64,000 bases of DNA from Halosolutus halophilus. GTDB lineage: Archaea > Halobacteriota > Halobacteria > Halobacteriales > Natrialbaceae. The position numbers and the translations under genes are program-made. Of this stretch, positions 49,571-56,089 are shown in pieces. Position 1 is the first letter of the stretch. Every line of letters begins with the position of its first letter. The notes beneath the pieces are model-generated. The model ran no database searches. It had not been told where the DNA came from and saw only the letters and a list, made by a program, of their open reading frames with translations. The stretch covers positions 4,588,001-4,652,000 of the forward strand of contig NZ_CP094974.1 of the NCBI RefSeq assembly GCF_022869805.1, read 5' to 3'.

Positions 49571-51472
49571 ATGACCGACACACCCACTTCGACCGATCGA
49601 GACCGGACCGAGACCGACGCGACGACCGCTGGGGCCGATCGAGAGCCGCTGTTCGACCGCATTCCCCGACGCGACTTCATGAAGGCCGGCGCGGCAGCCG
49701 GCGCGATGGGGTCGTTCGCCGGCTGTACGGGGCTGCTCAGCGACGACGACCTCCCGTCGGCGGCGGACGTCGGCGCGACCGTCGAACCCGGTGAACACGA
49801 CGACTACTACGCGTTTCTCTCCGGCGGTCACTCCGGCGAGATCCGCGTCTACGGCATTCCCTCGATGCGTCAGCTGATGCGCATCCCCGTGTTCAACACC
49901 GAGAGTGCCCGCGGCTACGGCTACGACGATCGGACCAGCGAGATGCTGGAGGACGCGGGTGGCTACTCGTGGGGTGACACTCACCACCCGCGTATCAGCC
50001 AGACGGACAACGACTACGACGGCCGCTGGGCGTTCGTCAACGACAAGGCGAACGGCCGCATGGCCCGCATCGACCTGACGTACTTCGAGACGGACGCCAT
50101 CGTCGACATTCCGAACCAGCAGGGGACCCACGGGGCCTGCTGTCTGCTCCCCGATACGAAGTACGTCTTCGGCGTCGGCGAGTTCCGCGTCCCGATGCCG
50201 AACGACGGGCGCGACCTCGACGATCCCGACAGCTACACCTCGACCATCGCCGCGATCGATCCCGAGACGATGAACGTCGAGTGGGAAGTGTTGGTCGACG
50301 GCAACATGGACAACGGCGACGGCGGCAAGGAGGGTCGCTGGTTCTTCGCGACGGGCTACAACAGCGAGAGCGGGGTTTCCGAGAGCGAGATGTCTTCGTC
50401 CGACACCGACTGGGTGAAGGCCTTCGACGTCCCCGCGATCGAGGAGGCCGTCGAGGCCGGCGAGTACGAGGAGATCGGCGGCGTTCCGGTCGTCGACGGC
50501 ACTCGGGGCAGCGCGCTGAACAGCGGCGACCGCCCGGTCGTCCGGTACGTGGACGTGCCGAAGAGTCCACACGGGGTGAGCGTCACGCCCGACGGGGCCT
50601 ACGCGATCGCGAGCGGGAAACTCGACCCGACCTGTTCGGTGATCGACATCGAGACGCTGGCGGACGCCGACGATCCGAACGAGGCGATCGTTGGTCAGCC
50701 CCGCGTCGGGATGGGACCGCTGCACACCGCCTACGACGGCCGGGGCCACGCCTACACGACGCTGTTCATCGACTCGCAGGTCGCCAAGTGGGACATCGAG
50801 GCGGCCGTCGAGGCCGAACCGGGCTCCGAGGAACCGGTGATCGAGAAGATCGACGTCCACTACAACCCGGGCCACCTGATCGCCGCGGAGTCCTACACGG
50901 CCGACCCGCAGGGCGACTGGCTGGTCTCGCTCAACAAGCTCTCGAAAGACCGGTTCCTCCCGGTCGGACCGATGCACCCGGAGAACGACCAGCTGATCTA
51001 CATCGGGGACGACGACGCGGGGATGAAACTCGTCAAGGACACCCCGTCGTACGCCGAGCCACACGACGCGTCGATCGTGAGTGCGGACAAGCTCGACCCC
51101 GCAAAGGTCTACGATCCCGAGGACTACGACGAGGAGTTCGTCGGGCCGGACGAGAGCGAGGTCGTCCGCGAGGACGGTCGGGTGCACGTGAAGATGTACT
51201 CGGTGCGAAACGAGTTCGGCTTCGAGGACGTCACCGTCCAGGAGGGCGACGAGGTGACGGTTACCGTCACGAACGTCGAGGAGACGCCCGACCTGCTGCA
51301 CGCGCTGGCGATCCCCGAGCACGACGTCAACCTGAAACTCGCCCCGCAGGAGACGCGCGAGGTGACGTTCACGGCCGACGAACCGGGCGTCTACTGGATG
51401 TACTGTGCGTTCTTCTGTAGCGCACTGCACCTCGAGATGCGCTCGCGACTGATCGTCGAACCCGCGGAGTGA
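49571..51472 (+). CDS. nosZ: Nitrous oxide reductase NosZ
   Basis: 633-aa enzyme that reduces N2O to N2, last step of denitrification. N-terminal Tat motif RRDFMK (around 33) and a lipobox-like FAGC with C52 indicate export folded and a lipid anchor. The propeller domain carries the CuZ His ligands: H138/H139 (DTHHPR), later THGACC, SPHGVSV, GPLHTAY, PGHL and EPHDASI. The C-terminal cupredoxin domain holds the CuA site (AIPEHD and YCAFFCSALHLEM: two Cys, His, Met). All metal ligands seem intact. First gene of the operon; the next ORF starts 6 nt after its stop. Confidence 0.96.
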   Translation: MTDTPTSTDRDRTETDATTAGADREPLFDRIPRRDFMKAGAAAGAMGSFAGCTGLLSDDDLPSAADVGATVEPGEHDDYYAFLSGGHSGEIRVYGIPSMRQLMRIPVFNTESARGYGYDDRTSEMLEDAGGYSWGDTHHPRISQTDNDYDGRWAFVNDKANGRMARIDLTYFETDAIVDIPNQQGTHGACCLLPDTKYVFGVGEFRVPMPNDGRDLDDPDSYTSTIAAIDPETMNVEWEVLVDGNMDNGDGGKEGRWFFATGYNSESGVSESEMSSSDTDWVKAFDVPAIEEAVEAGEYEEIGGVPVVDGTRGSALNSGDRPVVRYVDVPKSPHGVSVTPDGAYAIASGKLDPTCSVIDIETLADADDPNEAIVGQPRVGMGPLHTAYDGRGHAYTTLFIDSQVAKWDIEAAVEAEPGSEEPVIEKIDVHYNPGHLIAAESYTADPQGDWLVSLNKLSKDRFLPVGPMHPENDQLIYIGDDDAGMKLVKDTPSYAEPHDASIVSADKLDPAKVYDPEDYDEEFVGPDESEVVREDGRVHVKMYSVRNEFGFEDVTVQEGDEVTVTVTNVEETPDLLHALAIPEHDVNLKLAPQETREVTFTADEPGVYWMYCAFFCSALHLEMRSRLIVEPAE

Positions 51473-51477
51473 TCACG

Positions 51478-54552: not shown

Positions 54553-55484
54553 CTGGCGACCCGACCCGGATCGACGGCGACGACAGCGCGTCGTCCGAAC
54601 CGACGCCCGACGGCGGCTACGAGGCCGAAACCGGGACCGAGGCTGCGATCGCGACCGGTCTCGCCGCCGAGTCCGGGCGCTGGTACCGGCAACTGTTCGT
54701 CGTCGCCGAGACGGAGTATCGGCTGGCGATCCGGAGCCGGTGGGCGATCGCGCTCACCGCGATCTTCGCCGCGTTCGCGCTCGGGTTGACGACCTTCAGC
54801 GGCTCCGCGGTGAGTCCTCAGGGGTTCGAGCGAGTCGTCGCGAGCCTCGCCGTGCTCGCTGTCTACCTCGTGCCGCTGGTCGCGTTCGCGTTCAGCTACG
54901 ACGCCGTGGTCGGCCGGGAGGAGAGCGGCTGGCTCCAGACGCTGTTCGCGCTGCCAGTCTCGCGATCGTGGGTCGTCCTCGGGACGCTCCTCGGGCGGGC
55001 GACCGTGCTCGCGAGCGCGACGATCGTCGGGTTCGGCGTCGCCGGCGGGTTCCTCCTGCTCGAGTACGGTCTCGCCGGCTTCGACGCCTACGTCGGCTTC
55101 CTGCTCGGGACCGTCGGACTCGGGCTGGCCGTCCTCGCGATCGGCGTCCTGCTGTCGACGATCGCTCGCGAGAAGACCCACGCGCTCGGGATCGCCCTGC
55201 TGGCGTGGGCGTGGTTCGTCCTCGTTCACGACCTGCTCGGGCTCGGCCTGGTCGCCGCGTTCGGTCTCTCGGAGACGGCGGTCTCGGCGATGGTGGTGGC
55301 AAACCCCACCGCGGTCTTCCGGGCGCTCGTCCTCGGCGCACTCGGTGCCGGCGGAGAGGCCGGCTTCGCCGCCGTGATCGCGTCGTCCGGCCTCTCGACG
55401 GGCGTGCTCGTCGCGGCACTGCTCGCCTGGATCGTGGTTCCGACCGCACTCGCGACGATCGCGGTCCGGAGGCGACGACTATGA
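54549..55484 (+). CDS. nosY: NosY ABC permease
   Basis: 311-aa permease with about six membrane helices beginning near residue 65 (WAIALTAIFAAFALGLTTF ... VAALLAWIVVPTALATIAV). The NosY-like motif YDAVVGREESGWLQTLFALPVSR is present. An unusual 45-residue acidic, Gly/Thr-rich N-terminal extension precedes the first helix. Start GTG 54549 overlaps the nosF stop by 4 nt. Partner of NosF. Confidence 0.9.
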   Translation: MTGDPTRIDGDDSASSEPTPDGGYEAETGTEAAIATGLAAESGRWYRQLFVVAETEYRLAIRSRWAIALTAIFAAFALGLTTFSGSAVSPQGFERVVASLAVLAVYLVPLVAFAFSYDAVVGREESGWLQTLFALPVSRSWVVLGTLLGRATVLASATIVGFGVAGGFLLLEYGLAGFDAYVGFLLGTVGLGLAVLAIGVLLSTIAREKTHALGIALLAWAWFVLVHDLLGLGLVAAFGLSETAVSAMVVANPTAVFRALVLGALGAGGEAGFAAVIASSGLSTGVLVAALLAWIVVPTALATIAVRRRRL

Positions 55485-56089
55485 CCCGACGCGATCGCAC
55501 GCACGACTGCGCTCCCGGCCACTCCGGCGAAGGGGCCGGGAACGCACGCTACTCGCGTCGTCGCGTACTGACCGGCACCGGGGCCGTCGCCGCAGCTGGA
55601 CTGGTGGGCTGTCTCGGAGCCGACGACGGAGGCCACGAGTCGCCCGCCGGGCCGATCGCCCTGACCGACGGCCAGTCGTGTGACGTCTGCGGGATGACGA
55701 TCGCGGACCACTACGGGCCCGCGGGACAACTCTTCTACGCCGACGGGAAGCCCGAGGACCGCGACGGGCCGGCCCGATTCGACAGCGTCGGCGAACTGCT
55801 CACGTTCCACGCCGAGCGCGTCGCCCGCGGCTGGGAGCTTCGCGACGCGTTCGTCACCGACTACTCGAGCGTCGAGTACGCCCTCACGAAACGGGACGGC
55901 GTGATCTACATCTCGAGTCACGTCGAGGTCGGCGCGTTCGCGGACGCGACGACCCTCGACTACGTCGTCGACAGCGGCGTCGAGGGGGCCATGGGCGACG
56001 CGATCGTTCCGTTCGCCGATCGGGGCGACGCCGAGGCGTTCGTCACCGTCCACGACGGCGAGATCCGGGGCTGGGACGACCTGCTGTGA
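55481..56089 (+). CDS. nosL: NosL copper-binding lipoprotein
   Basis: 202-aa protein with a Tat motif (SRRRVLTGTG, near residue 25) and a lipobox LVGC (C44), so membrane-anchored outside. CDVCGMTI carries the Cu(I) ligands C67, C70 and M72 typical of NosL, a copper chaperone that feeds CuZ assembly. ATG 55481 overlaps the nosY stop (ATGA). Last gene of the operon; nosR is absent, as expected in archaea. Confidence 0.93.
   Translation: MTRRDRTHDCAPGHSGEGAGNARYSRRRVLTGTGAVAAAGLVGCLGADDGGHESPAGPIALTDGQSCDVCGMTIADHYGPAGQLFYADGKPEDRDGPARFDSVGELLTFHAERVARGWELRDAFVTDYSSVEYALTKRDGVIYISSHVEVGAFADATTLDYVVDSGVEGAMGDAIVPFADRGDAEAFVTVHDGEIRGWDDLL

Follow-up and report, generated by a model that had tools for sequence, protein, structure and literature searches.

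The second gene of the compact nos operon of the haloarchaeon Halosolutus halophilus encodes a 263-aa membrane protein that we firmly identify, by sequence comparison, as the archaeal form of NosB. The presence of this gene follows that of nosZ so closely that NosB qualifies as a membrane protein specific to the reduction of N2O. The operon is located in a 64,000-nucleotide stretch of DNA (hereafter, the window) of the single 5.06-Mb contig that makes up the host genome. Two features are of particular interest, namely, the pairing of NosB with a clade-I-type NosZ and the predicted similarity of NosB to claudins and TARPs. With respect to the function, we put the probability at roughly 60% that NosB is an auxiliary subunit, without a redox cofactor of its own, that is involved in the docking or assembly of NosZ.

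The nos operon and the identity of its second gene

The operon (positions 49571-56089) consists of six ORFs on the + strand, in the order nosZ-orf263(nosB)-nosD-nosF-nosY-nosL (Table 1), in full agreement with the initial annotation of a compact six-gene operon. A 5-nt gap separates nosZ from nosB, which overlaps nosD by 4 nt; the claim that nosD, nosF, nosY and nosL are chained by overlaps of 4-20 nt is also accurate (20, 4 and 4 nt for nosD/nosF, nosF/nosY and nosY/nosL, respectively). We assigned the ATG start to nosB; an alternative GTG at 51469 would yield a protein of 266 aa. The NosZ protein exceeds the cut-off of the TAT-dependent family and scores under the cut-off of 625 for the Sec-type family TIGR04246 (544.6 bits). 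Its Tat signal is followed by a lipobox-like FAGC, and NosL carries a lipobox-like LVGC, both read directly from the sequence. Among the 44 haloarchaeal loci examined, the Z-B-D-F-Y order is kept in all 43 with NosY in reach, so this arrangement is not due to chance. NosL comes next in 28 of these 43 loci and is missing beside the operon in the remaining 15. A NarO-like site (CGAAC-N4-GTTCG) upstream of nosZ was considered as a shared regulatory feature and rejected: the best site in the window has 2 mismatches, a level reached by 18% of shuffles. In the 44 loci, sites with at most 2 mismatches were found in 25, exact ones in three, at scattered distances.

Table 1 Features of the nos operon, in window coordinates
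Feature	Position	Strand	Evidence
nosZ, nitrous oxide reductase, 633 aa	49571..51472	+	TIGR04244 (TAT-dependent NosZ), 735.6 bits (NCBIfam cut-off 625); PF10518 (Tat signal, Pfam)
nosB, 263-aa membrane protein	51478..52269	+	bacterial NosB profile; hhalign; place directly after nosZ
NosB P29-x-W31, helix 1 end/first outer strand	51562..51570	+	alignment
NosB outer loop 1, residues 37-95	51586..51762	+	alignment, hydropathy, model
NosB outer loop 2, residues 146-185	51913..52032	+	alignment, hydropathy, model
nosD, beta-helix NosZ maturation protein, GTG start	52266..53645	+	TIGR04247, 382 bits; PF05048
nosF, ABC ATPase	53626..54552	+	PF00005 (ABC_tran), E=2.2e-28; operon position
nosY, ABC permease, GTG start	54549..55484	+	PF12679 (ABC2_membrane_2), E=4.7e-29; operon position
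nosL, copper chaperone	55481..56089	+	PF05573, E=1.1e-35

Pfam returned no family for the 263-aa ORF at E<=1, and what NCBIfam returned (E=0.12) was noise; a search of the PDB sequences with the window protein and a 72-row profile gave no match at E<=10. The weak Pfam matches to DUF4131, TgpA_N and MHYT seen across NosB members were set aside as membrane noise. A tblastn search of a plasmid collection returned matches in four haloarchaea and weaker ones (E 9e-6 to 1) in Thermomicrobium, Hymenobacter, Gemmatirosa and Deinococcus. The match is a 'hypothetical protein' directly after an annotated nosZ in Thermomicrobium, Hymenobacter and Deinococcus, and tblastn revealed the same order in the unannotated Gemmatirosa record. 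These four bacterial sequences and a fifth one, that of Tunicatimonas, retrieved via its own nosZ, were combined into a purely bacterial NosB profile, for which the window protein is the sole match in its own genome (E=1.4e-26). The profile-profile comparison (hhalign) of the window protein with bacterial NosB gave a probability of 99.8% (E=8.6e-30, 185 columns). Thus, the protein, described initially as uncharacterized, belongs to a known family. The haloarchaeal nosB genes in the public records we examined are labeled 'hypothetical protein', and the copy in the window is caught by no Pfam or NCBIfam model.

The published description of NosB, as given in part of PMC9697520, is that of a polytopic membrane protein, encoded between nosZ and nosD, with the conserved stretches LNHYIGM and YGHN; a passage in PMC11388526 gives the number of helices as 4 or 6. 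Hydropathy and the AlphaFold model agree on four helices for the window protein, with the N-terminus inside, and on a pair of outer loops, one of about 59 residues and the other of about 40, in line with the initial view of a multi-helix protein with a large outer loop. The first loop carries APQY and LNKYVGF (residues 64-70, 51667-51687), and the second one carries GHSLDPDA (residues 150-157, 51925-51948) and PPxxG. The columns of the two published stretches align, with LNKYVGF and AGHS in the window protein, and the cores LNxYxG and GHxLD are kept. The pattern common to the 46 haloarchaeal and 5 bacterial NosB sequences comprises PxW, APQYP, LNxYxG, PE, GHxLDP, PPxxG, N and G; P29-x-W31 is invariant in 46/46 haloarchaeal and 5/5 bacterial rows as well as in all 72 rows of the larger alignment. 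The motif conservation among bacteria is inflated because the bacterial loci were retrieved by NosB motifs. In the LNHYIGM motif, the His (position 66) is replaced by, or alternates with, other residues in haloarchaea (K/H/Q/R/S), and the Met is Phe in 46/46 sequences. The window protein contains no Cys, and a single near-invariant His (H151) is left in the NosB alignment. Compared to the bacterial clade II NosB, with which it shares the location directly downstream of nosZ, the four helices and the APQYP, LNxYxG, GHxLDP and PPxxG motifs, the window protein differs in its length of 263 aa, an additional outer segment (about residues 76-91), a charged C-terminal tail and LNKYVGF in place of LNHYIGM.

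Association with nosZ and a mixed operon

Among 149 relatives, strong NosB homologues (E<=1.2e-68) are present in 45, and full-length nosZ was found in the same 45 genomes. Weak partial matches in two genomes (G009, G038) and weak second matches in two others (G024, G007) were dropped before the NosB count, as was, before the nosZ count, a 73-aa nosZ fragment in a 46th genome (G085), where this piece lies beside a nosL piece, without nosB. In a set of 344 genomes of the phylum, which overlaps the first one, the NosB profile matches 23 genomes and the NosZ propeller model matches 22, the same 22 being matched by both; in the single exception (G335), NosB is encoded right where a contig ends. 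In bacteria, nosZ lies just upstream of nosB in 77 of the 80 loci analyzed, the top 80 among at least 552 and all retrieved by NosB motifs; the other 3 loci begin at most 250 bases from a contig end. The phylogenetic profile against nosZ, proposed initially as a check, is thus passed, and the refuting condition named there, frequent occurrence of the protein in genomes that lack nosZ, did not materialize (45/45 relatives; 22/23 in the phylum set, where the one exception is at a contig end). A passage in PMC13274427 describes a clade II cluster lacking nosB, nos_4 of Schinkia. That an unrelated membrane protein happens to sit in the operon could be suggested by the 'hypothetical protein' labels and the lack of a Pfam or NCBIfam family, but the NosB homology, the perfect co-occurrence with nosZ in the relatives and the adjacency to nosZ in the bacterial loci refute this explanation, to which we assign a negligible probability.

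In the maximum likelihood tree of 46 NosZ sequences (unrooted, one model), each of the three groups, haloarchaea, clade I and clade II, is separated from the other sequences by a branch with support of 100. The mean path from haloarchaeal NosZ in this unrooted tree is 1.25 to clade I vs 1.96 to clade II. The window NosZ is of the TAT type and nearer to clade I than to clade II; the Sec-type NosZ typical of clade II is not what the window encodes, as judged by the sub-threshold TIGR04246 score and the tree. Haloarchaeal NosZ is classed as clade I in the relevant part of PMC8400030. As stated in the initial annotation, NosR is absent: no FMN_bind (NosR) protein was detected at E<=1 in the host genome. 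In contrast, all 7 clade I loci we retrieved contain a NosR/NirI-family or NosR gene, and none of them has an annotated NosB-like gene between nosZ and nosD. The window operon resembles the clade I operon (nosR-nosZ-nosD-F-Y-L-X) in the TAT-type NosZ and the D-F-Y-L order, and differs from it in that nosR is missing and nosB is present instead; unlike bacterial clade II NosB, the window NosB is paired with a TAT-type NosZ and precedes nosD-F-Y-L in the clade I order. This is a mixed operon in which a clade-I-side NosZ and the D-F-Y-L order are combined with nosB replacing nosR. The nosB gene is stated to be exclusive to clade II in a passage of PMC11096178, and exceptions within archaea are mentioned in one of PMC11409646, which means that the occurrence of nosB in archaea is not in itself a new finding. 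Contrary to the former statement, the pairing with a clade-I-type NosZ in haloarchaea disqualifies NosB as a marker of clade II.

Predicted structure of NosB

AlphaFold models were obtained for the window NosB (pLDDT 80, pTM 0.73, 72-row alignment) and for the Fodinibius NosB (pLDDT 91, pTM 0.84, 59 rows). The underlying alignments include, respectively, 71 and 58 of the 80 bacterial sequences together with the window protein as the only haloarchaeal row, and because they overlap, the structure searches with the two models are not independent. In both models, the first helix is followed by two or three outer strands and a short helix, then by a pair of helices, another two outer strands and the last helix. 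The outer loops are thus predicted to form a beta sheet above the helix bundle, in the arrangement found in claudins and TARPs. In the Foldseek search of the PDB with the Fodinibius model, claudin-4 is the best match (E 6.1e-4, probability 1.00), followed by TARP gamma-5 (6.8e-4); all of the 50 matches listed belong to claudins, AMPA receptor/TARP or GSG1L-type entries, a complex of the GABA-A receptor with GARLH4, or the DUOX1-DUOXA1 complex. The window model retrieved the same families on top, with E of 0.016 and up, and one bacterial protein, LetAB, among the matches listed. VIA-align of the Fodinibius model against TARP gamma-7 gave Z 11.5 (rmsd 3.3, 145 of 189 residues), and against the designed claudin 8oyv, Z 10.4; for the window model and a designed claudin, Z was 10.9 (rmsd 4.8, 155 residues). 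A search of a viral structure library produced no match at E<=0.001.

The TM-scores of these matches are about 0.3-0.5, and VIA-align issues a warning for helical models at Z under about 13, so we treat the result as a prediction of a claudin-like fold and not as membership in the claudin family. The predicted models display the four helices and outer beta sheet of the claudin/PMP22 proteins. The signature of these proteins is W-GLW-C-C with two cysteines, in place of which the window protein has PxW and zero Cys. At the sequence level, no similarity between NosB and claudins was detectable in the PDB search at the above threshold, and there is no claudin among the matches listed in the Pfam search with the 72 members (25 of 61 families). 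Thus, NosB models share the four-helix bundle and outer sheet with the claudin, TARP, GSG1L and DUOXA1 proteins of animals but come from another domain of life, without the paired cysteines or detectable sequence similarity. Our literature search on a claudin-like fold of NosB found nothing relevant to this protein.

The role of NosB in N2O reduction

The claudin/TARP-like shape, if correctly predicted, suggests docking or assembly of NosZ rather than electron feeding. Under this scenario, NosB would be located in the membrane beside NosDFY and NosL, with its outer sheet holding NosZ, which is probably lipid-anchored itself. The copper centres of the held NosZ would be loaded by NosL together with NosDFY, and/or the finished enzyme would be kept docked at the membrane. 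The electrons for NosZ would come from a soluble carrier distinct from NosB, namely, a blue copper protein in the case of haloarchaea and cytochromes c in that of bacteria, and NosB itself would have no redox cofactor. Gene fusions speak for the assembly side of this scenario. A Pfam NosL domain was identified behind NosB in 8 of the 10 long ORFs tested, and a model built from these 8 fusions detected NosL tails in 22 clear cases and 1 weak case among the 80 bacterial loci; a NosB-NosL fusion in Dyadobacter is already reported in a passage of PMC9697520. We also observed one NosB-NosD fusion (L079), on a single contig of a Gemmatimonadaceae MAG. The absence of nosL beside 15 of the 43 haloarchaeal operons indicates that NosB does not depend on an adjacent NosL.

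The initial annotation considered NosB, in the absence of NosR, as a possible link to halocyanin or quinol, that is, an electron-transfer component that would stand in for NosR between NosZ and either quinol or a small redox carrier. Apart from the presence of NosB and absence of NosR in the same organism, a NosB-NosC2 cytochrome fusion is reported in part of PMC11409646, an electron-transport role is assumed or proposed in passages of PMC9697520 and PMC11539149, and the invariant H151 together with the outer-face aromatics might make up a site for quinol or for docking. However, this histidine is the only near-invariant one, and the NosB alignments contain no conserved set of heme, Cu, Fe-S or flavin ligands; in particular, CxxCH is found in none of the 126 sequences (46 haloarchaeal and 80 bacterial). 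Moreover, NosB is of the same kind next to c-type cytochromes and next to blue copper proteins. By a crude count that covered any frame, antisense ORFs included, a CxxCH ORF is found near nosZ in 47/55 bacterial loci vs 2/43 haloarchaeal ones. In 12 of the 44 haloarchaeal loci, a blue copper protein gene on the same strand precedes nosZ at a distance of no more than 300 nt. The window has no blue copper gene beside nosZ, and 14 blue copper matches are located elsewhere in the genome. According to a passage in PMC7754194, the plastocyanin encoded upstream of nosZ in Haloferax mediterranei was co-enriched with NosZ, and the authors proposed that it is the donor. Such an upstream blue copper protein is a more obvious donor for NosZ than NosB. 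The NosL and NosD fusions, and the best structure matches of the models, which are non-redox auxiliary or junction proteins, also speak against an electron link; being the weaker of the two readings, it seems unlikely to us.

The same fusions, along with the location of the gene between nosZ and nosD and the mention of copper management in part of PMC9697520, could be taken to indicate that NosB is a carrier or channel for copper or sulfur in the NosDFYL pathway and not a scaffold that binds NosZ. But haloarchaea have not conserved the His and Met of LNHYIGM, and the window protein lacks Cys altogether, so we regard this role as quite improbable. The docking or assembly function remains the one we favor over the electron link. 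We count against it the NosB-NosC2 fusion, the electron-transport assumption in print, the 15/43 operons without adjacent NosL, the Schinkia nos_4 cluster without nosB and the middling fold scores.

The claudin/TARP-like prediction translates into a concrete, testable hypothesis on NosB as an auxiliary subunit of NosZ. As a tentative extension, NosB might be a prokaryotic claudin/TARP-fold subunit dedicated to NosZ that predates the split of clades I and II, was retained in haloarchaea with a TAT NosZ of the clade I side, gave way to NosR in proteobacteria, and acts as a partner similar to DUOXA1 and TARPs that would hold NosZ at the outer membrane face during both assembly and work. Haloarchaea provide a second system for testing NosB. 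A nosB mutant of Wolinella is reported to lose N2O reduction (PMC13274427), an inability to respire N2O that the passages concerned report second-hand from Hein et al. 2017 (PMC13274427, PMC11388526, PMC9697520); this phenotype fits an assembly role and an electron role alike. The passage on nosB in PMC11459464 deals with neighboring genes of PIN-domain toxin-antitoxin systems.

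nos loci within and outside the haloarchaea

In all 43 haloarchaeal loci with NosY in reach, among them L037 from Haloferax larsenii, nosD is followed by nosF and nosY. The contrary statement that nosFY were not found in Haloferax mediterranei (PMC9240420) probably needs to be checked. In the relative G085, the segment on the minus strand of locus L053 is a leftover of the nos operon: a piece of nosZ encoding 73 aa immediately precedes a nosL piece, and all the genes between the two, including nosB, have been lost. Outside the haloarchaeal order, the G170 genome has the gene order nosZ-nosL-nosB-nosD-nosF-nosY, and in the unrooted NosZ tree its NosZ falls on the side of clade II. 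In a bacterial locus, NosB and NosD are joined in one ORF, which could be either a genuine fusion or an assembly error.

Features in and beyond the window
Feature	Location	Remark
nirK, copy 1	G000:C1:1569309-1570769	window's genome, outside window
nirK, copy 2	G000:C1:1585072-1586001	window's genome, outside window
nos operon remnant	L053 (G085:C2:40000-53000), 6467-6765	minus strand
Locus L155		G170 (2.2 Mb); same phylum as window genome, other family
Locus L154		G335 (1.7 Mb); same phylum as window genome, other family
NosB + NosD, 645-aa ORF	L079:6654-8588	Gemmatimonadaceae MAG
Adjoining ORF 1	window 57382-59388	start uncertain
Adjoining ORF 2	window 59022-60860	start uncertain

Other genes in the window genome

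The two nirK copies, one of which has a gene for a blue copper protein after it, are separated by ~15 kb and lie ~3 Mb from the nos operon. Downstream of the operon, the sole family match of ORF 1 is a weak one to DUF6782, and ORF 2 has no match. The two ORFs, which have a zinc-peptidase-like motif, HELVHALQDQHF, in common, look like a tandem duplication.
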